Of a stretch of DNA of 64,000 nt, positions 38,101 to 64,000 are shown piece by piece. The DNA is from Bolinopsis microptera. Taxonomy: Eukaryota; Ctenophora; Tentaculata; Lobata; Bolinopsidae. Position 1 is the first letter of the stretch. Each line of letters opens with the position of its first letter. The notes under the pieces were generated by a model. That model saw only the letters and a list, made by a program, of their open reading frames with translations. It searched no databases and had not been told where the DNA came from. The stretch lies in contig NC_087072.1 of the NCBI RefSeq assembly GCF_026151205.1, forward strand, positions 20,426,103 to 20,490,102. The letters are read 5' to 3'. Both the position numbers and the translations under genes were made by a program.

Positions 38101-41100
38101 ACCAGCTGCTGGAACCCTACGATACAGTCCATAGCCCTGACGAGAAGAGTATCATGACGTACATTGCTGCTCTAACTGCTAAACTACCTGATCTGGGAGT
38201 CCATGTAGATGTGAGTTGTGTTTTGTTGAATATTCCTGCACGTGCAGATAATAGTAATACTGTGGCTATTTCTTGTTCTTGAAGCTCTATTCTGCTGAAG
38301 GAGTCCAATGAGAAATAGTTGTCTCCAAGCACGAGAAACAGCAATGAATGATATGAAATGCTTTCAACAAATTTCCGCGTTGCAGAAGGAATAACCTGCA
38401 TAGTTTTCATTAACGGCTTTTGTATGTTTCAATTGAAGACGGTTGAACTAATCAACCCTTCTGCGCTTTCACAAGGGAATACAAACCAAACGATTCCTCC
38501 GACAAAGTGAAGCGCTTAGCGCAACGATGAACCTAGCACTTGCTCAATGCTCACAGTACATATTGTATCACCGTGTGATATAATGCGGTTCAAACCAATT
38601 GGATGGGAAACGTATTTATAGTTTCCGATTGGTAGACGTTGCGTACTTTCGGGTCGGGTTAAAAAACACTCAGGACAAAAGAACAAGATACCAAGAACAA
38701 ATACCCATAATTTTTCCAGCATTCAATATCCCCTGCACAATGGTAGGTACATAACAAAGAGTGGCGGTCTCGCCCGTACTTACCCAGCCTTTTATACCTT
38801 TAGTGATCAGCCAACCAGTCACGACACTCATTATCTCGAAGCAATATTATCAAATCACCCTTTTTTCGTGACCAATGTGTTGCCTGCCTGTGTCAATGCT
38901 TGGGATCTGTCACTATTTCCGAAAACAATAGGAGCTTTTGTCCGTATCCGACGATTCGTCCTCGTTCCTAAATTTCGTTGGAAGTGTAGTGACTAAAGAC
39001 CATTCTTTTAGTCAGCTGTTTAGAGTTTGCTTTGTAAACTGTATTTCTGAGGAAATGAGTTGAATATTTGATCGCCGATAAGCACAATTTGAACGTGTTA
39101 CTTACTGGTTCCCATTACTGGTTTCCCATTCTTGAGCGTTGTCATGGATGATAAATTCGAGGAAGTCATCGAAATGATCGAGCGAACGATACGTACTCTA
39201 TTTGAAGAAGTAATGTCACACACATTAATCTTACCATAACGTATTTCACAATAGATCTTTTATATTGAAATGTTGAATTGATGCTAATTTCAATTCTTTA
39301 GTACTCTGCCATGCCTTGATAAAAGTTTAGTGTGCAGACAACATAAAACGTTGTGCAGATTCGATTCATATCAGTTTGTCCACAACAAATGTGGATGATG
39401 TGCAGTTAGAATTTGTGCAGGCCACAAGGGTACCGGGTTAAGAATATTTCTATAACCCATGCCTGGCATACCACGTGCTGATAGTTGAACTTTACCAGGT
39501 TGCGACAATAGACGACTATGCGACCCACGCTCGGGCAGTTAAACAGTTCCTGGGAGACAAGAAGAACAGTTGGGACACCGACCCATTACCCGTCACTGTC
39601 GGTACGTTCCATGTTGACATGATTTTCACAATGCACATAATATGCACATAATATGCACATAATATGAACATAATATACACATAATATGCAATTAACATGC
39701 AATCAATATGCACTTAATATGCAATTAATATGCACTTAATATGCACTTAATATGCACATTCACTAGAACTTCAAGTTCCACAACACTTAACTATCCCTGT
39801 TTAAAGAAAATTCACCCTCCCTAGCCCAAATTAGTGATGTGGATAACCTTGGAACATGCTCACTCATTACCATCAGTTGCATACTGAATGTTGCTTTGTT
39901 CTGCCCCCAAACCAATAATACCAAATAAAAGCTCTTAACTTAAAGTTTAAGCAGTAACCAGCCATTATAAGCTGATTAGCCCCTATTGAACTGTTGTAGT
40001 ATTGTACCTGGAGGGTATTATATCCTGAGTTTGAGCAGTAAGGTCTGTGTTGCTGCCCAATGCTTGCTATCCTGCATCAAGCATTTTTCATAGTCTGCTT
40101 TCATTGTTTCATCCGCCATAAGGCTCGTGGCAGCCACAATTTGCATTCATAAATGAAATGTTTATTGATAGGTATTTAATGATAGGTATTTTCAATTTAC
40201 ATGGGCATGATTTGACATATTTTGTGCATAGCCTCCATATATTTACATGTCTGAGATTATGATGACTATTGACAATTTGGAGCATATCCCAAGTACATTC
40301 CACCGGTAATTGGGACATTTTTGTGCTTGATTATTATTTGATAGCCTCTCCTGCACGTGACCAGAGTACCCTGATATACTCGTGCCCCATGTAACACTAG
40401 CAGCAGGAATGAGAAGCATGTTAAACCCGTTTACTAACCCTGGACCAGATTCACCTACAGAGACGATACAAGCTGAGATTGACGCCCTGAGAGCGTTCGG
40501 AGCCAACCAGATGCCTGATAAGCATAAGGAGATTGACTTGCTGGCTAAAGCTTACAAAGAACTTGAAGGTATGGGATGTGGAAGTAAAAATGTTATCACA
40601 GACTTTAACACCTACTGTAACACAGACGTTAACACCGACCTGGACTCAGTTTAGGGCAACTAAACAACAAAATGAAATTACCGGATCAAAGACCAAGTTT
40701 CTCTGCCTTAACACGTGTCGAGAGAATAACAACTACCACTTCTTTGAGGAGTAACAAACACGCGACTGCAACCGCTTGCCAACGACTACTGACCAACTCT
40801 GTGGGAACTACTGCCCTCCAAAACATCTTATACTGAAACATCGACCAACATGACCACTCGCCACTGACCACTATATATAATATAGAACATTTAATGGAAA
40901 ACAGTAAGGATAATAAGCAGTATTCAATATGCATGTATCTAGTTGATTATGTTATCATAACACATTTTTCCTTTTAGCAAAAACTGATTCGGACCAACTG
41001 AAGATCATCACGGACGAAGCGCTCACTCCCAAAGATTTGTCAGAGAGCTTCAACATTGCGCTGAACGCCAAGAAAGGACGAGAACAGAGACTCCTAAATC

Positions 41101-44100
41101 TCCTTAAAAAGTAAGTGTTAATTTGCCTGTGTGTCTATCTTTGTGGATCATTAGATTTTATAAGCTGCAGGAATGTTGCAGAATGGTGATATGTTTCTGT
41201 GAGTGTGTGGGTATGAACCTTACATTTAACTGCTTAAGTTTGCACGGTTCACATCATGTTTGGTACATGCGAGACAGTGCTGTGTTTGTGGTGACGTTTT
41301 GTTTGGCGGCCCAGGAGACATGGTAAGGTGTTGTTGTTGATACCCGGAATTAGTAACTTGAGAACTATGATACGGCTCGGAATGTAGGGCTTGATCTCCT
41401 GAAAATTTCAATTACTGCAGAGTTCAGTGTCAGTTCCGATCGAGAGTTTCTCGATTAGCGAAATCGCGGCTTGGATTCCCTTTGTGATTTCTTTGTAAAC
41501 TTTCGACGTTGTGTTTTTACATCAGAATCCAGCTACCATCGTATTTAAGGTGCTTCCCGTCGAAGCTTTCTTCTTTTCTTATCATTGCGTAATTGTACAT
41601 GGAATGCTGCGTGTCTGATATCGGAATATCACGTCAGCCTTCTCTTTTTATAATTATATTTCGATATTTTTGTTACCTTATTGTTTGTCCTGATTGTATT
41701 TGTAATGAACTCATACTCAAACAACACTGCTACTCCTAGAGAGATCAGTGAATATTTTCACCTCCCTTGGTTCGATAACCTTGTTTCATCTCAAAATCAC
41801 CTTATGGCTAATACTTCAATCCAATTACCCGATCAATATCTGATGATTTACATTCTTGACATATTCTAGTTTGTTCGTTTCCCATTGCCGCTTTCTGGCA
41901 GAAGGTTTTTCTGTTATTGTTATCTCCCTAAAAATGAACTCATGGTTCGCGCCTCTAAACATAGCGACGCCGCCGGCAGCTGCAGCCGGGTCTGGATCCA
42001 GCAGTTCCTCTAGATCCAGTTCGTTCTCTCTGGTTCGGAGACCCCTGATCAAGAGAACCAAGAGTTTGAGGAAGGCCTCTGTTCGAGCTGCTAAGAAGCT
42101 GAGACCCACCAGTATGATCGATGTACCGGCATGGTACAATAATTTGCTGTGAGGGCTTCCATTATTTGTTAATTTGCTTCGATCTTTTACACTTTCACAA
42201 GATTTGATAATTGTTTGGTTTTATTCAGCATGATTAGTGTTAATTTGTGAACGATCTGTTGTTTGTTCCACTTCGAGAAGCAGGACACCTAAAAATTGTG
42301 CCCTGAAAATATTTTGGTAATCGGTATAGAAGAATGTGAATCAAATTCAAAGAATGGGGATACGTATCTTAGCTCCTGTAACTGTAAAGTTGAGTGTTGA
42401 CAAATTGGCATGCTAAGACAGATCAGGGTTGAATTTGAGTTATACTTCTTCAAGATCATGTTCAGATTCGGATGGTAGTCAGCTTTGTTACTATTCCGAA
42501 TTGTCACAAACGTGTTTGTCACCCAAAGGTAGCTTAGTTAAAGGTATCAAGGCTTTGTAACCTTGTAACGTGTATCAGATTTCTTTGAAATAACAAGAAT
42601 AACTTTGGCCATTGGCCAATGATCGTTGAAATATGTATAGATGTATCTGCTTATCTGAGTGCACAGGGCACACTATTTTTCATCCTAGTTCAGTAGATGC
42701 GCTTAGTGATGTTGATGTTCATTCTTTGCACTGCTGTGACTTGACCGTGTCCATGAACTGCTTATCAGTCAGCGATGTTTGTCGCTGCTTCCTTCCTAAT
42801 GTCTTTCCTCAAGTAAATACCTCAGTCAAACCGTGCCTTGTTTACATTGATGTGCAGATGTAACCAACTTGTTTGTAAATATGTACATTGCACAATGCAC
42901 AATGTACCTTGTTGTTTGTAGTTTGTCCGTGAGAAGATTAAAGTGTGTAAGTTAACCCAGTACGCTATATCAGTGTACACTAGTAACTTCGTATTAACTT
43001 ATCTCACCCCCTTACAGGAAAGAGAACGAGGGTTCAGACCTAGAGAAGATAAGTGTTGACTGTGGTTCAGTCAAGGAGAAGCTCCGCCAGCTGGCTGGAG
43101 AAGTGAGCCGAGGCAAGGAGACTTGGCCGGATGCCAGCCAGCCCGAGATTAAGCGGGACTGTGACCGTATTGACGGTTTCATCGACGTGATCACAGCAGA
43201 TTTAGATAACATCACGAAGAAGTATAACGAGGTGGCACAGTATGCTACAGATACGGATACTATCACTCCCATTGCAGTTCTGATAGATGAGCAGAACACT
43301 GAGTTTGAGCAGATTGTTGAGGACTACCGAGCCTTCATATCTCAACATGTAAGTATTAATAACGTACAAATTACTTCGCTTAATTATCGGCTGTCGTTTT
43401 GTACTTTTTGTAAGAGACACCGAAACACGCACTTTTCCACTTTTTTCGATACGTTAAGTCGTTGTTGCGGTTGTTGTATGTACTCGTTCTAAATGGCGAA
43501 CTTAAAGTCTTCGCATACATGGATTAGAGGGCACAAAGTCGTGTTGACTCGCTCCACTTCTTCCACCAAAATCGTACGAAACGTTTATAGGGTTTGCGTT
43601 TGCCAATTTGTCAAATTATCTGTCTGATCTTGCAATTTCTAAAACAACCTATTTAATAATGCTCTGTCCCTGCTCCGATTTTCCTTACAAGCTCCCAACC
43701 CCCTCAGATGAAGGATTCAGAGGACTCTCTGCTGAACAAGATCAAGGATCTGAGCGAGAAGCTGGATGCTAAGAGGACAGGTCTGAGTAACATTCAGTGG
43801 ACTAACGACCTCGCTGTTCTCAAGTCTTGTCTGGAGGACGTTGAGAAGATTCAGAATGACATCAATACTCTCGAGGTACGTGGGTGGTTACCCTTTAATA
43901 TCGGCAACGTTTCTACCTAAAGTAAGTATTAGAGAACCAGGTGGTTACTTCGGGAGACATAATATGGTTCCCTCCCTGGTCTGGCTTCTAATGGTCTATT
44001 AATAGCTGGAATAGATTATAAGATTGCAAAATTGTCGAATGTTGTTATTATAGTATTATGTATCATACATGAAATTTGTGTTTTTTGTTTTCTGATAGAA

Positions 44101-53100: not shown

Positions 53101-56100
53101 GACCTACCCAAACTCCAGAAAATTATTGCAGAAGTAAACGTAAGTTTCTTATTCTGAGTTAAACTTTTGAGATATGTAGTGATGTAAATACTAGATGTTA
53201 GATACCAGATAATAGATGTTGTCTTATCTAAGATATTATGGTAATAGATAAGTTCTGCCCATACTTCCTCGTGTTATGTTCAAAGTTTTGAAGTGTCATG
53301 TTGTCCTCAAATTATTTTTTCGGCTTGCGATTTATGTTGGTTCAGAACTGTTCTCAAATATTGGACCACAAAAGAATGTCATAAACTGTCCTATTTACAG
53401 ACAGCCTAGCTATGATTGATTGATAAAGGAATGGCAATATAATTATAATGACTTTGGTGATAAAGAAACACATTTAGGATATACGAAGACACTTTCTTTT
53501 TTTTTGAATATTCATTATCAGGTCATAAAAATCAATCATTTAGTTAAGCGTAGTAAAGATAAACACTGCCACTCACACACACACACACACACACTCTACT
53601 TTTTGTTTACTTCGTGCCAACTGTTATTGTTTGTCTGCCTAGTGCTTGTCGTTGTCGGTGTACTTGCCTTTGAAGGAATATGCCACATGTTGAAATTTAC
53701 CCGGATCTGAAACCAGATGTAGGAACTTTAAGTTTAATAATTTCCGAACCTGCTTGCAAATTGCGTTTAGACTAGTACCGTAGCGCCAAAACGTTGTATC
53801 CTCTGATTTAATAAAGTTTATTAATATCAACCTCTAAATTTTTCTCGATAAAACTTATTCGACCCCATCAGTAACTCCTCCTCTGAGTAACTCCTCTTCT
53901 TCAGGTGTTCCTCGAGGACATGAAGGAGAAGGAGAAGGACATGGACCGTCTCAACAGCAAATGGGAGGAGGGAGTTAGCCTGGGTCTCGAGAACCCTGAC
54001 ATTGAGAGAAGGATTGCCAAACTGAACTGTGACTGGGATGAGCTTTGTGACCTGACTGAGAACAAAAGCAACACTGCCAATACCGCCCTGCAGAACATGG
54101 AGGATTACGATGTAAGTTTCAGCTTTAAAGTAGGGTTGGTTGCGCGGTGGAGACTCCTTTGCGTGGATATCGCACGCTTGCTTAATTGTTAATGTTCCCT
54201 GAGTTATGAAGAGATTTTGGATTGTGCCATGATGTGCCCATTTTGGGATGTGCGACTGATTGAGGGTACATTTTAAATCATATTCTTGATAATGATTTAA
54301 ATTATACATTTTTTTGACTTGTTGTGATCGAAATGAATTTTAACAGACCGATTGGATTGATCAGAAGGTATGTCATGAATGCCGGCGGCTCGCTCAATCG
54401 CCCCTCTTTAAATTTTTTGGATAAAATATTCTCAAATAATGCATGATTGATTCAAAAGCTTTTGTGATTAAAAGCTGCTCAGATCAACAAAATCAACAAA
54501 ATCGATTGTATGTGTCCATAATCACCTTCTAATCAAGACTGGTTTTATGATTCCCTTCAGCAAATCAGCACTTCTGCACCTTAGTTTCAGTCATATAACG
54601 ACTGTTTATTTATTTCCAAAAATCCTAAAAATCGCATATTCGCATATCATTTAACTCGTACTTGCCTATTAAATAACAAACCATGATTTGATTTGACACG
54701 TGTTCAACGTGAGCCGCGCGCTTACCTACCCCTATTCAGGCTGCTCTGGAGTCTGTGGACATATGGATAGCTGAAAAGCAGGACGTGTTGAAAGAGTTCG
54801 CTGAGATCCCAATGGATCGTGATAAGCTTGACAGAATGTTGGGTGAACACGAGATGACTATCCGGGATATTGAGGATAGGAAACCTAACATTGAGGCTAT
54901 CCTGGAGAAGGGAGGCTTGATAGTGGAGGCTCTCAAACACCCTGGTTAGTTGGACATTAGTGGAGTGTTTTTGGAGTGTTATTGGATTGTTTTTGTCTCT
55001 GCCTCTATGACGTGCTGAGTATAACTGATGAAAAAAAGTATATGTTAGAGGTATCCGATTATTTCTAAATGAAATCATTGATTACAATGTTGTAACAACG
55101 GGAAGTAGATATGTTACGATATTATAATTAATGATACAAATATTACAAACAACATGACGCACGTACACTGGAAAGTGAGAAGTGAGTAGTAACTGAGTAA
55201 TACCCACCACAGAGACAAAGAAAGCAGCATCTGACAAACTCAACGACCTGGATAAGAACTACATAGAACTGGAGATCAACTGTGCGGCCATCACCAGGAA
55301 ACTGAAAGATGCCCTTGGTGACATGTCCGATCTGGACGATAAACTAAAGGAGGTACGTTGTTTTTGTGATATAGTTAAAGGGTGGTACGTGGGGGGATGG
55401 CAGAGGTGTCTTTTACAATTTTTCAAAATGTTCAATTAATTAAGGTCAGGGGTCGGGAACAATTAAAATGCCTCTACTAAAGTCGTTACAGTACTATTTA
55501 GGGCTTGTGGCTAGAGATTACCCTTAATGTATTCACGAGTATTCGATCTTCCGGTCGGGTTATACTACAAGGCTTACTAGGCTGGTTTGTGGGTGATGTT
55601 TTAGTTGAGAATACCCTGTTCACATTTACATTGTGCTAGTCAGTGTTACTGCTAGTGTTTCGGAGCACTCCAGATACTCAATGATACGATCGCGCTAGGT
55701 GAATAATTGTATCAATTTTACTAATGATTAGCAGCTTTTCTGTAAAATGTAATATAGTATTCGCTACTTTAGTACTTTGTTGTGCTTTTTTAGACCTACC
55801 TGTGAATTGTGGTTATCTTTAAGAACTCTAATGCAACTTTTGTAAGTTGTAACAAATAGTAGTACCACGTGAGGTGGGTGCAATTATTCCGAGTAGAGCT
55901 GACATGGTGATCTACTCATCCCACCATTTTGAGATAGCACCAATGACTCAAACACCACGTGACACGTGTTTGACCACGTGGCTGTAGCCTACCTGATGCA
56001 CTCCGCGGTATACCACACCTTTAATAGTACGATCATAATTTCACTGCTATTGTCCAGCTACCTTTATAACCCACCCCCTGCTCCCCTGTATTGTGCATTA

Positions 56101-59100
56101 AACATTTTGCTCGTGATGAAATGATCGAAATCGTTATGTGTCCCCGGCATATGATCATTATCCCTTTTGCTGCCACTCGAAAACTTAAATCTTTAAATCT
56201 TCCCCCAGCTCCCCTGCTTTTATAGTTCACTGTCACAAATTGCTGTATCATAATAATCTTTCTGAAACACTGCTACTTGAGTCGTAATGTGGCCTTATGT
56301 TCAATGTGTTATTACATCATTCGTTACTTAATGTGTATATACATATAACGTGCTGCTGCGTCATGTTGGACATAATTTGAGATTAATTAATCTAGACGTG
56401 CTGGGGCTTGGTATTATAACTGATTTGTTTCAATTCTCGGGAATCAAATTCCAGTATTGATTCTCATTTCTCACGTCATTTGTTTTGAGGGCTCTGTGTT
56501 TGTAATTTGTATCCGTCTCGCTTTGTTACGGCTACAGTTACGAGATCATTGCTCAGATGTTCTATATTATGTTCATAATTTCCAAGTAAATTATGTTGAA
56601 TAATATGATATATATTTATTATATTCATGACGTTCGAAAATAATTATGTTATCTTTCTACTGTCGTTCACTTGTAGTTGCCCGCTCCGTTCATGAGTTCA
56701 GAGGAGTAACTTAAAGACTTAAGAACTCATTACATAATGTATCATTATATATGTATATATGCAGTCTGCGTTTACATGATTTCGTCAGTTTGGCTTTTAA
56801 TCGACCACAACGAGCAAAATTAGATCAACGATCTTAAATTTGTTATCTTATGGTCATAGAAATGTTAGTTCATTGAAATTTTGTCGGTTAAAAATTCTTG
56901 AGAATTCCCCATTGTCACCCCTTACTGACATTTCAAATCACAAATAACGATGAGTTGTCATATCGATAGTTTGTAAGATTTGCTCTATGTATTACTATGA
57001 GAACGGAGCAAAAATTACATTTCTTCCAAAATTAATCAGTCGAATTTAATAATTGGTCAAGCATGTAGCGTGACAGAATTACACGTTAACCCATGCTAAT
57101 TGATAAACTGATGGACCTGGTCTCCGTCTTGCCTGTCTTCTTATTTAAACAAGGAACTGTCACGGTCAAAAAGAGCAAAAGAATGCTCGCTGGGTAGTAA
57201 CTGCACGCAGTATGCATCACCTGCCCCCGCATCTTGAGCACGCACGTTGTTTGATTATAATTTCTTGTTGAAGTGTAGCGAGATTCTTCGTACGGCTTCC
57301 TTAACCAATTATTTCGAATCAACGGATAGATATTATTTTGCCAGTTGTATACCTTCGTTTTGAGCGCCACCTCATTTTTTGTTCGTTGATCGCTTTTGGT
57401 ACCGCCCGATATGCGTTGATAGTATCAGAGCGTTTTGAGATCGTTGTGTGGGGGAATGAGGGAAAATGAAGAGATTCAGAGAACACACGATGTCAAGAAA
57501 ATGGCACAACTGTTAGAGGAACTGTCGAGTGATACCGACATTGGTACTAACCAAATCAATAGCTCAATTGTCACGAACGATGTGCCGGGTAGAACGTTGC
57601 AGAGCAATTTGGTGACTAGAGCAAATACAATATATTCAATGACACCCAGAGTTATTCGACCAAGACAGAACTCCTTTGTAAAGTTTAAGGAGTTGGACCA
57701 CAATGATTTATTTGTAACGAAGTCCCATGATTCCTACTTTGACGAAAGGGGTGCTAGACTTAAAAAACGGGTGTCATTTAATTTTGAAATTCAGTCGGAC
57801 GACGGGGATACTTGGTCACCTACGGAGAGTAAGGGTGGGTTGAACGATTTTCAGCGAGCTGATTCCACTTTGAAAAGAATAGAAAAGCGATCACAAGTCA
57901 GCAAATCTTTCAAACCAATGCAATCTTTTGATGAATCCATTGAACAGATCGCTTCGCCTGATCAAAAACCTTATATTGTAAAGCCTTTGAAAAGAAAAAT
58001 TTCGTTTGTCTCTTTCGTCAAAAACATTCAAAGGGATAAAAATCGTTGTACTGCCAACTCGTCTTTAAAAGAGTGGAAGAATGGCCCTATCACCACGCGT
58101 CGTAATTCATTCATGAACTTCATCCAAAACCAAAAACCTTCCTCCAGCCGTCCTCCAGTCTGTCCTGCTTCTGCTATTAAAAACCGATCTCTCATCTGCA
58201 GGGATTTTGAGGGCGAGGACTCCCTAAACTCTATCTCTTCTTTCACCACTATGAAGAAACACAACATCAAATCTGATCAGAATTCACCGAACAGACCTCC
58301 TCCTTTGATACAACCCAGACTCAAGCGAAATTCCTCCCGAACATCAGTAACACTTATATTCAATAACCAATATGACAGTCAGTCTTTAAATTCATCATAT
58401 CAAGGATCTAGTTGGAGGAGTTCCAGCTCTTTTTCACGGTCCGACTCGGGTTACACTTCAAATCAGTCCCTCCCTCCGCCTACACCAATCACAGAAACCC
58501 ATCACCACCATCAGCCTTCAACTACTGCCAACCAGCGTCCCAGCATATCCCAAAGTACTGCCACAATAAAACGGCGGCTCTCTCAGATCCCATCCAACCC
58601 CATCTACGAAGATTTCCCCCATGCTCTAGAATCTATCAAGAAAACTAGCAATAGCGATGCTTGTGACCTTGAGAAATTACGTCACCGTACTATGAAATCA
58701 CCGGAAATGATTGATAAGTCCAAGAGGAAGGAGTCTAAGAGCACGCTGATGACGAAAACCAGACGGTTCTCACAGAACGTTTTAGGTCACATTGCCAAGA
58801 AGCCCCGCAAGTCTCAAACCAGGTCCACCAGGTTCATCGGGGTTAACAAATACAGGGCTTTTGAAAATTTGGTAAGTTGCTGACATTACATCATTTAATT
58901 TCGTTTTATCTGTAATATGCACTTACGCATTTTTGAATGTGGCCGGAAACAATATAACCGTGGAATATGATTTAACGGAAATACTGCAAAGTTAATAACA
59001 TGCAGCTCAGTGGATCATTTGGCCTGAAATATTGTTTTTAAAATATGCTCGTGGTTTAAATTACTGGAAGGAAAATACCTGCAGCTAGCATTATGACTGG

Positions 59101-62100
59101 CACCGTGATCTATCGGTCGGTACTTGGGCTGTCCTGTTATAATCTCTTTATCTGAATTTAAAGTTTCAAATTATCGCAATCAAATTAGGTCTCAAATTGC
59201 CCAGCCCCAGGCCCGATAATGGATTATGTTGTCACTTGCTAAGTGATCAATGCCACTATCAAAATATGTATCATTCATGCTATGCATACAATTAAATATA
59301 CCCCCTATGTACCCAGATTACCTCCCTCAGATCATTGTCCCTAGTATACCATCTAATGTGTCCCTCCCTTATCGTGCCCTAAAGTAGATCTGTGTCGCGT
59401 GTGTCGCGTGTGTCGCGTGTGTCGCGTGCTGTCTGCCGACCCGTCTGTCAGACCTCCGTCCGTGTTTCACCTTTCTTCACCCTTGTTTTTGTGTCGCTAC
59501 TACACAATATACACGTTATAATATTCTGTCATGAAAATAGGAAACATTTCCGTTACCCCTCGAACAGCCGGTGCTATCAGTTCTAGCTCGGATAGGGCGA
59601 TGATTTGCGACACCTGTGTCATATACTGTTACATCCCTCGTCTATTGGTACGTGTACATAACGTCACTGCTTTGTGTTTAACATTGTTTATCAAATTCCT
59701 TTGTGCCCTTTTTTGTTCGATTAAAATTAGCTGTTGCGATAACATTTTAAAATAAAACGACTTTTTAAACTTCGATGTTATCTAATATCTAATTTTCTGT
59801 ATCTTTTTTCAATCTGAAAATTTGGGCTTGACATAAGAAAAGTTGGCACATTTTTTGTTCTGTTATTGACGTCATGGAATTAAACTTGAATTAAACATCA
59901 AACCCGTCATGGGTATTGGGTATTTACCTAAAATAATTGCCAATTAATGAACCCATAACACTATCACCAACATAGCAAGAAATTTCATACTCCTTTTTCT
60001 TTAGAAATGTAGCTCGTTATTCTGCATCGCCCAATGGTAACGATCTGATATAATTGAGTACGGTTAATATCCTATGAAGGGGGCTGAGCATTCTCATAAC
60101 TTCGATTTAAGTGATAATTTCGTGTGAGGTCGGTTTTTAGATTTTAGAATGTCCTTACACTTCATAGTTTCTTATAAATTGATGCGTTAACTTTAATAAG
60201 CACAACCTGTTCGCCCACTTGACGTTTGGTGGTTACACTAACCACCTTTATCGCGGATGACCGAGGTCAGAATATTCTAAAAAGACATGATAAACCGACC
60301 ACCTGTTTGTTCGTATGGAAAATCTGGAGACCATTCTTCAGTTTGACCATCCAGACCTAGCCATCGTTTATCTTCGCTTGATTCCTATTTCAATCCTGCG
60401 GTTGCTGCCGTCGAAGTTCGTTCGATGGAGCCGTTGAAACGTTCTATTTCTATAGATTTGTTGATCGATTCTCGGGCTAGTCACAATTCTCTGGATAGCG
60501 GATACACCTCGGACACTTACCTGTTTTCTCCGGACACTTATCCAGATGTAACCTCTGACCGTAGTCTCACAACAACACTTTCCAATTGTAGTATCAGACC
60601 AGGAATCAAGTTTTCTCCCTCTCTGTTGGGTCGCTGTGTAGATAAACCAGTAGATACCCTCTCACGTGACACATCACGTGACACATCACCTACAGTTTCA
60701 GATAACACTACTCTCACTGAACCCTCCACTACAAACACTACTCCAGATCCTGCTGATGCTAGTTTAGATCCGATCAGCCTATATAGTCTTGAAGCTAAAG
60801 ATGTTTGCTTTTCCGTTCCTGTTCAGAAAGATGACGATAGTCCTGTTGAGACCGGGAAATTTTCGATTGATTCAACTTTTAATGCTGCTTCTTCAAGATC
60901 TTTAAGAGTATCGGTATCATCCCAAAACACTAAAAAGTTTTCAAACCTTGCTAATAAGTTTGAATCTTGTAGTACCCAAGATAAATTAGAGTTTGTTTCT
61001 TACTATGTCGCTACTAATGAACAACGTATAAAGAAGAGATCCATCGCCGAGAAGAGAGCCATCGCTGAAAAGGTTAAATGTGAAAAGGATGAAGTGATTG
61101 TTATGACTATTCCTAAAAAGATTTTTGGGGGAATTTCTGACAAACTAACTTATACCAAACCACTTTCCAAACTTATTGTCAGAATTGAGACCCCAACGTA
61201 TAACCTCGGTCTAAAACCTTATAGACGAAAGCATATGGAGCCTGATTCTTATAGAAGTAATCACGAAGAGCCTGATTCATGCAGTTTAAAGAAAATGCTG
61301 GAGTATGACGAAATCAGTTCACCTATGGTTTCAGACCGTGATAATGGTGAAAATGATAATGATAGCATGTGTAAAGAATATCAGCAACCTACCTCCCTCT
61401 TACTAGACTTCCACTCTTCGTTAGAATCCGTCTGTATTGAGAACTTTTTACTTCAGGGCTCTGAAAACATCTCAGATAAACTAAAAGTCGAGAAGACCCT
61501 GCACTTAAGTGAATGGGGCAGATGGAGAAAGAAATCGATAGATCTTCCAGAGGTTTTTCGTCAACGCAGACCAAATCCGTTGTCCTCTAGATATCTCGGA
61601 AGGGAGATCTCATCCACTACTCATCTCGAAAAACATCCTTGTAAGCTGTTTTTGTCTAAAAGAGAAGAACAAGAGGAGGAAGAAAGTCCTCTTTTGGGGA
61701 GTGCTTCTTATTCTCAACCTGTTTCTCTAGTTTCCGAATCCGTCTCTCCTGTGAAACAAAATTCTAAGAAGAAGAAGATGAAAAAGCGATAACCAATCGA
61801 TACTAGGTTTCTTGGGTTCAACCCACTCTCGTATCTTAAGCACATGGTAATTGGTAGTTCTAACTCCTGTTTTTCACCTCAGTCATTTCATTTTTACGTT
61901 TTGTTGGGTTTTAAGCACACTCCCACTAACTTTATTATTAAATGCGTGATCTGATTTCAGGTGTGGGTGAGCTGAAAGTATGTGATTTGCTTCATGAAAA
62001 TTAAAATTGATGGTACCGGAAAAGTTAATAAAATGCTGTGCATTCTTACAATTATATGAGAGGATACAACTTAGTGATCCTGGCCCAATTTACTGGCTGC

Positions 62101-64000
62101 TTAATTTACATGACAAGCATTGCTGGCTCTATAGTTAAATCTCGGGTTTAAATTAATTTTCAGCGTGTGTCCACTAATTGACGGTGCATTAATTCTCTAT
62201 GACAATGTTAACCGGAAACTTTGCCGTGCATTTACTATAGACTGCTTCTCTTTATCCAATTTGTCTCATTTTTAGCGTCAGATTAGGCCATGTGTTTGTA
62301 GATTTGTTTAAAGTTGGCATCTTTTCCACTATTATAGAGGTTCAGCAAAGTTGTGTATAGCGCAGAGGGCGCCTCTCCGCACCCCTCTTAGGAGCATCAT
62401 GCTCTGTGCTGTGATAAATGTTTCTGAGAGGTGAAACATACAAGAGTTCAGCAAATGTTTCCTCAACCACCCGGCCCAACTTCCATAAGTTCCTCTTCAA
62501 GGTTAAGAAAGGAGAGCAAGTTCAGTACAACCCTCCTCTTCGTACTATCGACTTGTCTAACGCTCAAGCTCTTCCCCATTTTCCAAAACCTGCCAAGAGA
62601 AAACAGTCAAAGGATGGAATCATCAAAAGATGGAGTCTCAAAAGATCGTCTAAAGGTAGGAGAAGTGTAGACTCTTCCCCGCCTAAAGTCTCTCGGAGCC
62701 CTTCAATCACATCTCCACCACAGAACTATGTTAAGAGGTGGAGCCTCAAACGTTCAAACAAACGGTTATCAGCTGTTACCAGTGACTGGAGCGCTCTGGA
62801 TGAGCCTGAAGAAGGTGGTTTATCTGAACAACTTGAAGCAAACACCGTTCATACTAGGGTCAGAAGATGGAGTACTGTTAGCAAGCAGAAATCTCTACCT
62901 GCATCCACCGAAAGGAAGCTCGAGGACGAAGATGTTATTGAAGAAAACGAGATGGTTAAGGTAAAGCAGACAAGATCACTACGTTTTAAACCCGTCAAAG
63001 AGGAGCGAGCTTCCTGGCGACTATCTCTCCAAGACGGCTGCAATGGAGCTAATAAAGCTTGTGTCTACCTCCAAGACACCGCGGAAGTATCTCCCTCTGA
63101 AGAATTCCAAGCTCTGAAGCGGACTCTGTCTGGAGCTCAGTTCTACAAGGATAACTCTGCTTTGATGTTTCTTTTTCCTGAGACTGATCCTACTCCGACC
63201 AGCAGATTGGGTTCTTTGATAAGGATGACCAGTTCAAGGAAGTCACAGTTGGTGAAGGAAGAGGAGAGGAAGCTGAAACGATGGAAAAAAATATTTATGG
63301 GAGTTAATAAAAAATTCGTGCTGAAACATTTGGTTAGTGGTCAGAAGTATTGTTTGATAATTTGAGCCTCAACAAATTCAGATAATTTACTTAGTATTTT
63401 TTATCGCCATGCCACTTTGTTAGTCTTATACCATCGGATAAGTTCTATGGTATGATAGCTATTAATAGAATTGTACTACATTATGTCCGACGAGCTCAGA
63501 AGCCATTTTACATTTTCTCCAATTGTAATTTTTCCTCAGTAAATACATCCGTGTGATAATGGTGTAAAATTGATTATTATTAACTGGGAAGTGGGAATCG
63601 GGAGGGGTACTATTTGGTAAATTTCTACTGTTTTCTTAATGCGAACTATACGTCCCCTTATATTGTTTGATCACACCATGATAATGTATTTCTCTCAGGT
63701 CGTCAGGTGGGAAGATGAAAGCAAGGACTACATCCAAAAACAGGAGCCTGTTAGTGAAGATCCTGAGAAACTCAAGGAACAGATTGCCAATCTCGGCGAG
63801 TTCAAAGAGGCTGTTGATGGTAAGTTATTCCAGAATAAATTTGTCTAGGAAACATTTCTAAAGAACTTTCCAATCCTAGATGCGATTGTTCAAATCTGAA
63901 AGATAATTGGAAAATGAGGAGCCCAAGTCAAAAGTTTTGTCGTGCTTGACTGGTTCAAAGTTATTGCTATTTCATCAACGTATCTATTCTCAGAGATGAG
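29078..64000 (+). CDS. Plakin/spectraplakin-like cytolinker gene (gene-level span; exons listed separately, 3' end outside window)
   Basis: Ordered coding exons give two tandem CH domains (actin-binding domain), spectrin-type helical repeats, an SH3-like segment inside the spectrin region (exon at 49239), then further spectrin repeats to the right edge. The CH1-CH2-spectrin-SH3 order is the plakin-domain layout of plectin, dystonin and MACF1, which link actin to intermediate filaments, microtubules or membrane adhesions. Splice phases are consistent throughout. Several introns contain ATG-led exons in matching phase and one terminal exon, implying many isoforms. Plectin versus spectraplakin type cannot be decided because the C-terminal half is missing. 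Confidence 0.85.
29716..29777 (+). CDS. Plakin exon: start of CH1
   Basis: Acceptor TTTTCAG, phase 1 in and 0 out. It reads [20 protein letters not shown], the first helix of a type-1 CH domain (compare the canonical VQKKTFTKWVN). The phase-1 entry also fits the donor of the upstream repeat gene at 27893. Confidence 0.85.
30756..30845 (+). CDS. Plakin exon: CH1, second part
   Basis: Phase 0-0. Contains [21 protein letters not shown], the DLxDGxxLxxLLExL signature of CH domains. Confidence 0.88.
31016..31096 (+). CDS. Plakin exon: CH1, third part
   Basis: Phase 0-0. [20 protein letters not shown].., equivalent to the RMRIHxLENVxxAL helix of CH1. Confidence 0.88.
31097..34043. other. Intron, repeats only
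   Basis: Mostly plain intron sequence. A ~65-bp tandem duplication lies at 31852-31979. A perfect 12-bp inverted repeat (GCTTTTAATTGG-G-CCAATTAAAAGC) lies at 33783-33807. An RTP-like gene or RNA gene was not found. Confidence 0.45.
31852..31979. repeat. ~65-bp tandem duplication
   Basis: TTAAATCGCATTCAAATAAC...GCCATGTAA occurs twice; the second copy lacks a few bases (TTAATAAC). Confidence 0.85.
34044..36020 (+). CDS. Large intron-resident ORF between CH1 exons (possible alternative first exon)
   Basis: The open frame starts at 33867 without ATG; the first ATG is 34044 ([16 protein letters not shown]). About 658 residues, Ser/Thr/Pro-rich and largely disordered, with a basic patch ([12 protein letters not shown]) near residue 365 and a more folded end (VFQVNDIP.., [19 protein letters not shown]). 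An internal 38-bp duplication gives [13 protein letters not shown] twice. It sits between CH1 exons 31016-31096 and 36165-36263. A phase-0 donor (TAT|GTGGGT at 35988) would join it to the 36165 exon, giving half of CH1, but the donor is weak. Otherwise it is an intronless nested gene with its own stop. No known family. Confidence 0.6.
   Translation: MFHRTFTWLSEMKRRKLSRPKHRPSGADIGSLPSPSSLPSPSSLISSPEPGLEKLPTSLTDYISPDKPPKSLYKKVTSSSALSQTLYKKVTSSSALSSKSSHAVPKHNHLNLQNPECYDLCFKTEEDDYQIIHDKGTALTSQNSDDVITVTSQTNGYHHDAQGDKGDTYLPLSDHDIQKICSDIVSTLGNLGADISDISRSGKYKREDVNSANLAVSSRTPTPASEEGAVSPASTRNCSVHTLESSSELSLEKQTMNNIPHQVPTHTLPRQLVNKEQINMNYTVSLSAQLSVALSTSLPSPEVKPVLSSIPPAITSSDHLPAHPLSSSSDRSRFPLDKPPKHPQKPLRYIRKRSLKFKRVKRKVKKHQHIVHPSTVADNAYRHASENVHGQSRSLLINKLISLYRKLQQRCKSLEATSPKPKLDNPLKSQDVSNCTNLNEISSLQRYMNTCYQMLKQQLSTYEKKIFLEKELKVFQVNDIPTRVACSRDVVRRNSLPTDTLFEYLFGKELKPSAVFVKYDRRVRIPSQEVCRRIIGEVPPSTRSKTTVIPPKPDQTISTPRSEGSATTRNNSSRLPEKQNTTKTDNNRQYPTLEFSRQCFTSSDTANQCRSQVKTYRVTERLESSNGVVTVKDHYVTAVSWINNNKIYVGVTLTLTTI
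36165..36263 (+). CDS. Plakin exon: end of CH1
   Basis: Phase 0-0. [20 protein letters not shown] then [13 protein letters not shown], the most conserved CH1 helix ([14 protein letters not shown]). Confidence 0.92.
36433..36512 (+). CDS. Plakin exon: start of CH2
   Basis: Phase 0 in, 2 out (ATC GG|GTGAGT). [20 protein letters not shown].., equivalent to the SAKEALLLWCQ helix that opens CH2, but divergent: the Trp is absent. Confidence 0.8.
37156..37301 (+). CDS. Alternative first exon entering the middle of CH2
   Basis: ATG 37156 opens [18 protein letters not shown].., a basic head followed by a Gly/Ser/acidic part with five Asp (GAT run) and [12 protein letters not shown]. It ends at AAC GG|GTTAGT, phase 2, the same phase and near-identical last bases as the 36512 donor, so it can replace CH1 and the first CH2 helix and join 37752. 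The product would lack a working actin-binding domain. Confidence 0.6.
37752..37818 (+). CDS. Plakin exon: CH2, second part
   Basis: Phase 2 in, 0 out. [20 protein letters not shown].., the NFTxSWxDGxAFxAL signature of CH2. Confidence 0.92.
37992..38210 (+). CDS. Plakin exon: end of CH2
   Basis: Phase 0-0, 73 codons. [14 protein letters not shown].., [18 protein letters not shown], and the hallmark [12 protein letters not shown]. Confidence 0.93.
39499..39601 (+). CDS. Plakin exon after CH2 (linker/spectrin)
   Basis: Acceptor TTACCAG, phase 0 in, 1 out. [20 protein letters not shown].., a helical linker into the first spectrin-like repeat. Confidence 0.78.
39630..39760. repeat. Degenerate 11-13-bp tandem repeat (ATATGCACATA/ATATGCACTTA)
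   Basis: About eleven imperfect units just after the donor at 39602. Confidence 0.85.
40401..40568 (+). CDS. Plakin exon, spectrin-like region
   Basis: Phase 1 in (acceptor CACTAG, or CAG three bases on), phase 1 out. [20 protein letters not shown].. then a helical stretch [28 protein letters not shown]. Confidence 0.75.
40978..41110 (+). CDS. Plakin exon, spectrin-like region
   Basis: Acceptor CTTTTAG, phase 1 in, 2 out (CTT AAA AA|GTAAGT). [16 protein letters not shown].., ending [13 protein letters not shown]. Confidence 0.8.
41111..41933. other. Intron, nothing else seen
   Basis: No supported feature. It may contain the promoter for the candidate first exon at 41934. Confidence 0.4.
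41934..42133 (+). CDS. Candidate alternative first exon (basic, Ser/Ala-rich head)
   Basis: ATG 41934 opens [20 protein letters not shown].., a poly-Ser/Arg stretch and [20 protein letters not shown], a basic phosphosite-like helix. The frame can leave at GCA TG|GTACAA in phase 2, which restores Trp and joins the phase-2 exon at 43018. Without splicing it stops at 42150. Coding composition (GC-rich third positions) stands out from the intron around it. The donor is weak. Confidence 0.42.
43018..43348 (+). CDS. Plakin exon, spectrin repeat
   Basis: Phase 2 in, 0 out, 110 codons. Long helices: [20 protein letters not shown].., [15 protein letters not shown].., [19 protein letters not shown]. 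Charge and heptad pattern are typical of spectrin-type three-helix repeats. Confidence 0.85.
43708..43875 (+). CDS. Plakin exon, spectrin repeat
   Basis: Acceptor CCCTCAG, phase 0-0. [20 protein letters not shown].., [20 protein letters not shown]: amphipathic helices. Confidence 0.85.
44105..45070 (+). CDS. Intronless rhodopsin-like 7TM receptor nested in a plakin intron
   Basis: 321 residues, seven membrane segments: TM1 [19 protein letters not shown] (GN of the class A motif), TM2 with VAD (Asp2.50), Cys at the top of TM3, TM4 with Trp ([11 protein letters not shown]), Cys in the second outer loop (YNCTYS), TM5, TM6 lacking CWxP, and TM7 ending [16 protein letters not shown]. The DRY site reads SKV ([13 protein letters not shown]) and NPxxY reads NFYVY, so the activation motifs are non-canonical. 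N-glycosylation sites NNLT and NCTY. Same strand as the host gene, between exons 43708-43875 and 45345-45513. A pyrimidine tract and AG (TTCTGATAG) 8 nt before the ATG suggest a spliced leader or 5' intron. Ligand unknown. Confidence 0.88.
   Translation: MVSSNNLTVRGVPSEVERYCSTVYHIFLFFSSIVGNSIILIASIKYDTINLNRFIVALIQHIAVADIITSISYVILPGTVSQIANKWFLGDFCHISVPLSWLCYRAAAYLLCVMIISKVFILRYPLRSITLSKLRAHKVAAIIWTWSLFYPAYNLIARNHSYFDYRVYNCTYSELASGWKWVKVVAGGFLNITIVMSTVVLLVMAKRMTRRRNDLRWQGVLTVVLTSSVHFLSTLQYAVYLVADYLVTEKYLGYLDPVFRRISLNMAYLNILWNFYVYIFTISSFREFVRSKIRSLLRFMPVLHPNSVGSLQTNNHQSQEL
45088..45093 (+). terminator. Polyadenylation signal AATAAA of the receptor gene
   Basis: AATAAA lies 18 nt after the receptor stop codon, implying a very short 3' UTR. 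It also shows that the receptor is a separate transcript inside the plakin intron. Confidence 0.6.
45345..45513 (+). CDS. Plakin exon, spectrin repeat
   Basis: Acceptor ATTTCAG, phase 0 in, 1 out (GAA G|GTTGGT). [20 protein letters not shown].., then [20 protein letters not shown]. Confidence 0.83.
45918..45948 (+). CDS. Candidate mini first exon (10 codons)
   Basis: ATG 45918 opens [10 protein letters not shown] and reaches G|GTAAGT in phase 1, matching the exon at 46651. The consensus donor is the main support. No in-phase acceptor fits upstream, which favours a first exon over an internal one. Confidence 0.33.
46651..46766 (+). CDS. Plakin exon, linker
   Basis: Acceptor ATTTGCAG, phase 1 in, 0 out. 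[20 protein letters not shown].. then a less helical part [14 protein letters not shown]. Confidence 0.78.
47384..47635. mobile_element. Foldback/MITE-like inverted repeat, 252 bp
   Basis: The ends GAAGCCTGACCCAGTC (left) and the complement of GACTGGGTCGGGCTTC (right) are inverted repeats. Symmetry continues inward: TACTTATGACAT-ATGGTAAAC against GTTTACCATAATGTCATAAGTA, and CTAGCATTAATT against AATTAATGCTAG. It is non-coding. No clear target duplication was seen. It lies in the intron before 48559. Confidence 0.7.
48559..48997 (+). CDS. Plakin exon, spectrin repeats (largest rod exon)
   Basis: Acceptor TATTTCAG, phase 0 in, 1 out, 146 codons. Helices [20 protein letters not shown].., [20 protein letters not shown].., [20 protein letters not shown]. 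It then leads into the SH3-like segment ([17 protein letters not shown]). Confidence 0.88.
49239..49387 (+). CDS. Plakin exon: SH3-like insert
   Basis: Acceptor TTTGCAG, phase 1 in, 0 out. [20 protein letters not shown].. then [19 protein letters not shown]. The strand-rich pattern ending in VPSVCF-like LPIVYF and a Pro-rich exit matches the SH3 domain embedded in the plakin-domain spectrin repeats. It is not helical, unlike the neighbouring exons. Confidence 0.72.
49388..50062. other. Intron, nothing else seen
   Basis: No supported feature. Confidence 0.45.
50063..50194 (+). CDS. Plakin exon, spectrin repeat
   Basis: Acceptor GTTTCAG, phase 0-0. [20 protein letters not shown].., [17 protein letters not shown]. 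Confidence 0.82.
50315..50474 (+). CDS. Plakin exon, spectrin repeat
   Basis: Acceptor CTTACAG, phase 0 in, 1 out. [20 protein letters not shown].., [20 protein letters not shown]. Confidence 0.85.
50676..50827 (+). CDS. Plakin exon, spectrin repeat
   Basis: Acceptor CACATCAG, phase 1 in, 0 out. [20 protein letters not shown].., with the buried-Trp position (MDWA) of a spectrin helix. Confidence 0.85.
51355..51441 (+). CDS. Plakin exon, spectrin repeat
   Basis: Acceptor CTTCAG, phase 0-0, 29 codons: [20 protein letters not shown].. VVSWQNIK. Two acceptors in phase 0 follow: the terminal exon at 51831 and the rod exon at 52759. Confidence 0.8.
51831..51959 (+). CDS. Alternative acidic terminal exon
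   Basis: After a long pyrimidine tract (CTCTCTCTCCCTG) and TGTGTAG the phase-0 frame encodes 42 residues, [20 protein letters not shown].. to DVEYFRVTY, then TAG. It has a run of Glu and a Ser-Asp-Ser acidic (CK2-like) site. Used as the last exon, it would give a short plakin with CH1-CH2, spectrin repeats and SH3 but no further rod. No perfect AATAAA was found downstream. Confidence 0.62.
   Translation, partial: NDPRVTVIDWTDDGSDSEEEEEEVLIERYNSVHDVEYFRVTY
52413..52561. mobile_element. hAT-type MITE, 149 bp
   Basis: Perfect terminal inverted repeats of 21 bp beginning CAGGGACAAAAGGATTTCG. The flanking 8-bp duplication CTTAGGCA lies at 52405-52412 and 52562-52569. CAGGG ends with an 8-bp target duplication are characteristic of hAT transposons. 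The interior is non-coding, with TTTCGCG/CGCGAAA motifs repeated in both directions. Confidence 0.9.
52759..52881 (+). CDS. Plakin exon, spectrin repeat
   Basis: Acceptor GTTCCAG, phase 0-0. [20 protein letters not shown].., [20 protein letters not shown]. Confidence 0.82.
53029..53139 (+). CDS. Plakin exon, spectrin repeat
   Basis: Acceptor ATTTCAG, phase 0-0. [20 protein letters not shown].., [12 protein letters not shown]; Trp at the spectrin helix-A position. Confidence 0.85.
53140..53904. other. Intron with CA microsatellite
   Basis: (CA)n at about 53574-53594. Nothing else supported. Confidence 0.5.
53905..54111 (+). CDS. Plakin exon, spectrin repeat
   Basis: Acceptor TCTTCAG, phase 0-0, 69 codons. 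[20 protein letters not shown].., [20 protein letters not shown]; two Trp as in spectrin repeats. Confidence 0.88.
54347..54367 (+). CDS. Candidate 21-bp microexon
   Basis: Pyrimidine-rich stretch, then TTTTAACAG|ACCGATTGGATTGATCAGAAG|GTATGTC: seven codons TDWIDQK, phase 0-0, so inclusion or skipping keeps the frame between 54111 and 54740. Trp at helix-A spacing fits the rod. Confidence 0.5.
54740..54944 (+). CDS. Plakin exon, spectrin repeat
   Basis: Acceptor CTATTCAG, phase 0 in, 1 out (CCT G|GTTAGT). [20 protein letters not shown].., [20 protein letters not shown], a clear spectrin repeat. Confidence 0.88.
55213..55352 (+). CDS. Plakin exon, spectrin repeat
   Basis: Acceptor CACCACAG, phase 1 in, 0 out. 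[20 protein letters not shown].., [20 protein letters not shown]. The next constitutive exon in phase is 63699, 8.3 kb away. Confidence 0.86.
55866..55980. promoter_or_regulatory. Cluster of four CACGTG E-boxes
   Basis: CACGTG at 55866-55871, 55956-55961, 55963-55968 and 55975-55980, about 1.5 kb upstream of the 57456 first exon. Possible bHLH-type enhancer; inference only. Confidence 0.35.
57456..58871 (+). CDS. Large alternative first exon (SFxxF / phosphosite-rich head)
   Basis: ATG 57456 ([20 protein letters not shown]) opens 472 codons ending at GAA AAT TTG|GTAAGT, a consensus donor in phase 0 that fits the acceptor at 63699 ([11 protein letters not shown]). The open frame starts slightly earlier at a TTG. 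The sequence is disordered, basic and Ser-rich, with four RxxS-F-x-x-F-like motifs ([33 protein letters not shown]), RRLS and RRFS sites, a DSGYTS motif (58443-58460), a Pro/His stretch and a C-terminal [11 protein letters not shown] that resembles the end of the 62418 exon. It would give a rod-only plakin with a unique head. No family recognised. Confidence 0.72.
58872..59530. other. Intron with 9-bp tandem repeat
   Basis: GTGTCGCGT is repeated four times at 59392-59427. No gene seen. Confidence 0.6.
59531..59647 (+). CDS. Candidate short alternative first exon
   Basis: ATG 59531 opens [20 protein letters not shown].., 39 codons with a Cys-rich end ([15 protein letters not shown]), ending at CTA TTG|GTACGT in phase 0, the same Leu codon and phase as the 57456 and 62418 exons. 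It can join 63699. The Cys pair might be lipidated or metal-bound, but this is a guess. Confidence 0.42.
60425..61792 (+). CDS. Large ATG-led ORF in plakin intron (DSGYTS-containing)
   Basis: 455 residues from ATG 60425 ([20 protein letters not shown]) to a TAA at 61792, ending in a Lys-rich tail. It is disordered and Ser/Thr-rich, with LDSGYTSD near residue 24 (60494-60511) matching the DSGYTS of the 57456 exon, and [11 protein letters not shown] repeats. Unlike its neighbours no strong in-phase donor is seen near the end, so it may be an intronless nested gene, a first exon with a hidden donor (TCT CCT|GTGAAA near the end is weak), or a decayed relative. The shared motif suggests origin by exon duplication. 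Confidence 0.62.
   Translation: MEPLKRSISIDLLIDSRASHNSLDSGYTSDTYLFSPDTYPDVTSDRSLTTTLSNCSIRPGIKFSPSLLGRCVDKPVDTLSRDTSRDTSPTVSDNTTLTEPSTTNTTPDPADASLDPISLYSLEAKDVCFSVPVQKDDDSPVETGKFSIDSTFNAASSRSLRVSVSSQNTKKFSNLANKFESCSTQDKLEFVSYYVATNEQRIKKRSIAEKRAIAEKVKCEKDEVIVMTIPKKIFGGISDKLTYTKPLSKLIVRIETPTYNLGLKPYRRKHMEPDSYRSNHEEPDSCSLKKMLEYDEISSPMVSDRDNGENDNDSMCKEYQQPTSLLLDFHSSLESVCIENFLLQGSENISDKLKVEKTLHLSEWGRWRKKSIDLPEVFRQRRPNPLSSRYLGREISSTTHLEKHPCKLFLSKREEQEEEESPLLGSASYSQPVSLVSESVSPVKQNSKKKKMKKR
62418..63332 (+). CDS. Large alternative first exon (RWSLKRS repeats)
   Basis: ATG 62418 ([20 protein letters not shown]) opens 305 codons ending at AAA CAT TTG|GTTAGT, phase 0, compatible with 63699. It is very basic: KRWSLKRS twice, [28 protein letters not shown], each a basophilic-kinase-like site. 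The end [11 protein letters not shown] parallels [11 protein letters not shown] of the 57456 exon, and both stop at TTG|GT. If unspliced it would stop at 63365. Likely head of a rod-only plakin isoform. Confidence 0.7.
63699..63819 (+). CDS. Plakin exon, spectrin repeat (shared acceptor for alternative heads)
   Basis: Acceptor TCTCTCAG, phase 0 in, 1 out (GAT G|GTAAGT). [20 protein letters not shown].., [17 protein letters not shown]. It follows 55352 in the long form and 57456, 59531 or 62418 in short forms. Confidence 0.85.
63994..64000 (+). CDS. Start of next plakin exon (cut by window edge)
   Basis: The acceptor ATTCTCAG ends at 63993. The 7 nt AGATGAG continue phase 1. Only the acceptor and the phase support it. 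Confidence 0.4.

Follow-up and report, generated by a model that had tools for sequence, protein, structure and literature searches.

Two long open reading frames in a rod intron of a Bolinopsis microptera spectraplakin gene as candidate alternative first coding exons

The window analyzed here is a stretch of 64,000 nucleotides from the ctenophore Bolinopsis microptera (C1:20426103-20490102), and the genome searches covered its assembly of 264.65 Mb in 232 contigs. For one ionotropic glutamate receptor of this assembly, the initial part of the ligand-binding domain has as its best match ML032222a iGluR, a name from Mnemiopsis leidyi (190 bits over 112 residues, against 108 for the next different protein), in line with a lobate ctenophore. 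Splice sites were scored with a generic metazoan splice-site matrix built for this analysis. The exon model was built with four stretches masked, which contain the long open reading frames (ORFs) discussed below. The window contains these parts of one large gene.

30756..31476, forward strand: CH1 exons (30756-30845, 31016-31096, 31400-31476); Pfam CH match at E 4.6e-9 in the spliced translation of the exon model
37752..38210, forward strand: CH2 exons (37752-37818, 37992-38210); Pfam CH match at E 1.7e-16
41934..42148, forward strand: a 71-codon ATG-led basic and Ser-rich ORF in the plakin region, a weak extra head candidate
53905..55352, forward strand: spectrin-rod exons of the exon model upstream of the intron of interest; the last ends in ..KLKE, in phase 0, at 55352
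55353..63698, forward strand: the host intron containing the ORFs, 8,346 nt, phase 0 on both sides, with donor gtacgt scoring 5.19 and an acceptor scoring 4.15
63699..63819, forward strand: the common acceptor exon, at the start of a spectrin repeat as judged by utrophin alignment

The tandem CH domains form an N-terminal actin-binding domain, and the CH2 region was matched again in the genome search at C1:20464097. The rod that follows consists of spectrin repeats, with a Spectrin match at E 5.7e-19 on the spliced stretch 48559-64784 and a further PF00435 match at E 1.1e-9. A C-terminal GAS2 domain lies on the same strand at C1:20570803, 81 kb past the window end (E 4.1e-26 in the genome search and 1.5e-28 in Pfam). 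Since CH1 and CH2, spectrin repeats and a same-strand GAS2 occur in one gene, the host gene is, on its predicted domains, a spectraplakin, of the giant actin–microtubule linker type. MACF1/ACF7, dystonin/BPAG1, Short stop and VAB-10 are likewise described as having CH-CH followed by a spectrin rod and then GAS2, all on one strand. Dystrophin and nesprin were considered as identities and rejected, as the same-strand GAS2 match rules against both; one SYNE model gave a weak match to the host gene (E 0.037). No Pfam or PDB match was obtained for the SH3 domain that the initial annotation had named, though coding exons occupy the plakin region, and Pfam found no EF-hand in the single ORF examined just before GAS2. 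The ORF at 41934-42148 is phase-matched to the exon at 43018, with a donor score of only 1.1, and it figures in the exon model as an internal exon. Farther along the same gene, upstream of the last spectrin repeats and GAS2, there is a 1,535-codon open frame at extended position 134114-138721. Elsewhere in the window, two long opposed ORFs, 22332-24626 on the reverse strand and 24391-26403 on the forward strand, have most of their sequence in common; they contain reverse-transcriptase-like and GIY-YIG-like stretches (labels assigned by eye) and resemble Penelope-like elements.

The host intron interrupts the rod at a defined place in a repeat. The upstream exon ends at 55352 (..KLKE|gtacgt) and the downstream exon begins at 63699 (cag|VVRWEDES), both in phase 0. 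When the rod segment spanning the junction is aligned with utrophin 3uul (query residues 107-212, E 1.7e-4), KLKE|VVRW is placed over ALEE|VLTW, which we take to be near the start of spectrin-repeat helix A. A second spectraplakin in the genome is predicted from matches on C1 to CH (2.312 Mb) and to GAS2 (2.433 Mb). Its alignment with query residues 161-309 is unbroken, at 22% identity, and it has no intron at the junction site, so it counts neither for nor against the reading of the intron ORFs proposed here. The region of this presumed paralogue at C1 2.410-2.436 Mb contains a 1,470-aa Ser/Arg-rich disordered ORF, an 803-aa coiled-coil-like ORF, GAS2 and, by eye, an EF-hand-like exon.

The features within the host intron are as follows.

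57456..58871, forward strand: first candidate for an alternative first coding exon, 472 codons, basic and Ser-rich, with donor gtaagt at 58872
59531..59647, forward strand: a 39-codon ATG ORF before gtacgt, at chance level and not accepted as an exon
60425..61792, forward strand: an ORF of 455 codons with its own stop and an AATAAA at 62027, 235 nt past the stop
62391..62417, forward strand: candidate spliced-leader acceptor; the stretch follows an acceptor-like site rich in pyrimidines (cctctccgcacccctcttag|GAG) that lies 26 nt ahead of the start codon at 62418
62418..63332, forward strand: second candidate for an alternative first coding exon, 305 codons, rich in [RK][RK]xS, with a weak donor gttagt at 63333

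Read to their own stops, the three large ORFs are 475, 455 and 315 codons long. Simulation of 400 introns matched to this one in length and order-3 composition gave longest ATG ORFs of 83 codons on average and 191 at most. These lengths make it very improbable that the open frames and their donors match by accident. Two observations lean toward accident. First, synonymous codon usage carries neither a coding signal nor a bias toward the usage of the rod, in 57456 (-0.060±0.036 per codon) or in 62418 (0.042±0.043 per codon); the control nested ORF at 44105 is also near zero (0.028±0.045 per codon). Second, the small 59531 ORF is truly at chance level, since an ATG ORF of at least 39 codons that runs into a phase-0 donor scoring at least 2.0 turned up in 30% of 300 simulated introns. 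An unmasked run of the gene finder chose parts of all three large ORFs as exons, two of them ending at the predicted donors; this gene finder has no start-codon state, and it chained the ORF parts as internal exons.

It had been proposed that ATG-led ORFs at 57456-58871, 59531-59647 and 62418-63332 have TTG as their last codon, followed immediately by gtaagt, gtacgt and gttagt, respectively, all in phase 0, and these coordinates are correct. An ATG-led open exon whose donor is in phase with the host acceptor is thus found in 57456 and 62418, and also in the chance-level 59531. The donor at 58872 scores 4.56, placing it in the top 1% of 9,500 GTs. It is the sole phase-0 donor scoring at least 1 in its ORF, and the stop follows 9 nt later in frame; when 902 stops in intron sequence were surveyed, 1 had an in-frame donor of that strength within 12 nt. 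At 63333 the donor is weak, with a score of 0.66 that 8% of model donors do not exceed (the model took in none below 0), and the stop follows 30 nt later in frame; an in-frame donor as strong lies within 33 nt for 55 of the 902 stops. A stronger phase-0 donor, scoring 3.5, occurs within the same ORF at 62961. At the other end, the ATG of 57456 falls within 12 codons of the start of its open stretch, which is true of 20% of 411 open stretches, and that of 62418 comes directly after a stop, as for 1.2% of 885 intron stops. The 62418 start context is poor (T at -3), and an out-of-frame ATG 19 nt upstream opens a short frame that overlaps the 62418 start.

The two large heads resemble each other at their ends. 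As the initial annotation noticed, they share a GVNK....L ending, and 6 of the last 14 residues are identical (F-GVNK------L). Among all 134,028 pairs of 14-mers that the two proteins allow, 48 show at least 6 identities, counting the end pair itself; none of 3,403 pairs of model exon ends does. The last triplet is TTG in both, as against 1 of 83 well-scored model exons. The features tested in these ORFs were chosen by eye beforehand, and the statistics are therefore partly post hoc. The further suggestion that the heads are tandem duplicates was not borne out, since no pair gives a significant Smith-Waterman alignment: the observed score was reached by 55 of 200 shuffles for 57456 against 62418, 18 of 200 for 57456 against 60425 and 101 of 200 for 60425 against 62418. 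The agreement between 57456 and 62418 is confined to the last 14 residues, and the end of 59531 matches each of them at only 2 of 14 positions.

The ends also bear on whether the ORFs are separate genes nested in the intron, each with ends of its own and unrelated to host splicing. Such genes are plentiful in the ctenophore Hormiphora, where they account for an estimated 12.24% of exonic bases (PMC8527503), and the host gene has other single-exon ORFs on the same strand. One of these, 44105-45067, is a 321-codon ORF in another intron; it has four hydrophobic segments in a simple scan and no Pfam match, and is possibly a nested gene for a membrane protein. A second is an intronless amine-oxidase ORF at extended position 106232, 42.2 kb past the window (Pfam E 7.8e-11). 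The intron between the CH1 and CH2 exons holds a 658-codon Ser/Thr-rich ORF (34044-36020) with no phase-matched donor at its end and no Pfam or NCBIfam match. Six ORFs of at least 300 codons lie outside the exon model, in the stretches masked when it was built; a phase-matched donor with a score above 0 is present in the last 75 nt of 57456 and 62418 and in none of the other four. Those end donors, together with the TTG and the shared 14-residue end, lead to the same acceptor and make independent genes a rather unlikely account of 57456 and 62418. For 60425-61792 we prefer it: with its own stop, an AATAAA downstream and no phase-0 donor scoring at least 1 (its only donor scoring at least 1, at 61641, is in phase 1), this ORF is more likely a nested intronic gene. 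The array of alternative first exons first envisaged at this locus thus shrinks to 57456 and 62418, for which length, donors, TTG and shared end speak; 59531 and 60425 drop out. DSGYTS is encoded by both 57456 and 60425, which about 2% of 500 shuffles also reach, and is a lead only.

A different use of the same donors would make the two ORFs very large cassette exons that keep the frame (57429-58871, for instance, with either 62502-63332 or 62724-63332), adding 203-481 residues to the full-length rod. In-frame acceptor-like sites are found at 57429 (-0.19), 62502 (0.70) and 62724 (1.77), and because all are in phase 0 the cassettes would be symmetric. The site at 57429 is only 2 codons into its open frame, as expected of a true acceptor, and the gene finder, which does not model start codons, took 62724-63332 for an internal exon. 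Long disordered ORFs also occur elsewhere, in the same gene (the 1,535 codons at extended 134114) and in the presumed paralogue (1,470 aa). Nevertheless, 57429 is weak as an acceptor, stops lie directly before the 62418 ATG, and a cassette would leave unexplained the 28-102 open codons ahead of 62502 or 62724. We consider cassette exons unlikely.

We give slightly better than even chances to the reading that one spectraplakin gene uses 57456-58871 and 62418-63332 as alternative first coding exons, never both in the same message. Each head would begin at its own ATG, and a phase-0 splice would join it to the exon at 63699. The ORFs, donor-like sites, phases, shared end and gene identity are observed; transcription, splicing and function are what we infer. 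The head would provide the first turns of helix A, giving ..RAFENL|VVRW or ..VLKHL|VVRW in place of the full-length ..DKLKE|VVRW. As either ending would complete helix A, the rod-only product would start with a whole repeat. It would consist of a long basic Ser-rich head, the remaining rod and the C-terminal, microtubule-binding GAS2, and lack CH1, CH2 and the plakin region. The idea of a plakin-type gene with putative products devoid of CH1 and CH2 is thereby upheld for the two large ORFs. Such isoforms may serve as microtubule-side or rod-side scaffolds without an actin grip.

The heads themselves are rich in potential phosphorylation sites. The pattern [RK][RK]xS occurs 8 times in the 57456 head, against a mean of 2.0 in 500 shuffles, none of which reached this count, and 6 times in the 62418 head, against a mean of 1.5, with about 0.2% of 500 shuffles reaching it. 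The clustered sites may be targets of basophilic kinases. RVxF and SxIP matches in 57456 were reached by about 1.8% and 34% of 500 shuffles, respectively, and are leads only. Calmodulin binding by the terminal peptide of one head was also considered. It was dropped because the 1-5-8-14 calmodulin-binding pattern with a charge of at least 4 and no acidic residue arose in 5.7% of 2,000 shuffles; in the other head the pattern occurs once, away from the end (2.6% of shuffles). PDB searches yielded no MLCK peptide, one giving a single match at E 1.4 and the other none. Neither head has a relative in Pfam or in NCBIfam, the latter a bacterial library. An origin of the heads from a repeat was rejected, as neither has a second copy in the genome; for 57456 the next best match was at E 1.77, with other matches on C11 at E 1.77 or worse. 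The 1,470-aa ORF of the paralogue was not among the matches of the genome searches run with either head.

The 5′ end of each head might come from an internal promoter, or a spliced leader might be trans-spliced to an acceptor ahead of the ATG. No TATA box was found in the 400 nt upstream of either head. In Hormiphora, at least 56% of Iso-Seq reads are reported to carry a trans-spliced leader (the authors' lower bound), and the leaders described from Hormiphora and Mnemiopsis mostly have the common end AATTTGAG. The acceptor-like site at 62391 scores 3.1, in the top 1.5% of 10,403 AG sites, and makes leader trans-splicing onto the second head plausible. Acceptor-like sites also precede the ATGs of the nested ORFs, scoring 2.1 at 6 nt for 44105 and 4.4 at 75 nt for 106232. 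Upstream of the 57456 ATG, the best acceptor-like site scores 1.1 and is 111 nt away. Since the first head has no close acceptor, trans-splicing is unsupported for it, and a promoter may serve.

A search of the genome for the leader pattern gave 44 matches (35 and 9), against 53 (16 and 37) for a reversed control. The control being as frequent as the pattern, only clustering on C13 and the flanking sequences carry weight. Seven leader-like matches (..ATTAATTTGAG and variants, with 1 to 3 mismatches) fall within about 98 kb at C13 12.797-12.894 Mb. The two of these that were inspected are followed by a donor, |GTAA, and adjoin a short inverted repeat (by eye; one perfect, one imperfect), and their flanks differ. 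Leader-RNA genes might show a donor, an inverted repeat and differing flanks, and the C13 cluster is a candidate for spliced-leader RNA genes. Dispersed TTAAACTATTTAATTTGAG copies, of which 8 were inspected, were rejected as leader genes; their flanks are nearly identical and repeat-like. We hold it doubtful, and on balance improbable, that the spectraplakin pre-mRNA is processed like an operon, with leader trans-splicing upstream of the intron heads making phosphosite-rich N-termini. If true, trans-splicing and not a promoter would choose between actin–microtubule linker and rod-GAS2 isoforms.

To call heads placed deep in the rod unusual, as was done at the outset, overstates the case. Spectraplakins are described as using alternative starts or splicing to make products without the actin-binding domain, as is predicted here; BPAG1e is such an isoform of dystonin/BPAG1. 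For mouse Macf1, three transcription starts are reported, and the actin-binding domain is missing from MACF1c and MACF1-4 (PMC8012552, PMC5979291). MACF1-4 is described as carrying N-terminal plectin repeats; here there would instead be heads of 305 and 472 residues, two of them in one intron, joining the spectrin repeat after the plakin region. Dystrophin, which belongs to a different gene family, is reported to have four internal promoters giving the N-terminally truncated rod forms Dp260, Dp140, Dp116 and Dp71 with unique first exons, and its dp427 forms to have 3-11 unique residues, not hundreds as here. Each short dystrophin form starts at its own place, not two heads per intron. In plectin, a dozen alternative first exons are described as setting isoform expression, and they encode short N-terminal pieces; they precede the actin-binding domain. 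Isoforms lacking the actin-binding domain and internal dystrophin starts with unique first exons are already in print, and therefore the finding is a variation on a known kind. What would be new is the length of the heads, their number in one rod intron and the possibility of leader-made 5′ ends. Our literature search returned no paper pairing spectraplakin with ctenophore.

A precedent for the last possibility is sma-9 of C. elegans, in which alternative trans-splicing is reported to yield a short transcript for a C-terminal isoform with a tissue-specific role (PMC2904332). The sma-9 trans-splicing was verified by RT-PCR; here the case consists of an acceptor-like site and candidate leader genes alone. 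If a leader makes the heads in Bolinopsis, an early-branching animal would be using trans-splicing to diversify its proteins; in trypanosomes, a study reports finding no sign that trans-splicing has a widespread role of this kind (PMC6821157). Ctenophores may be the sister lineage to the rest of the animals. If the alternative heads are real, then the removal of the actin grip by alternative starts would be as old as the spectraplakin family or would have arisen more than once.
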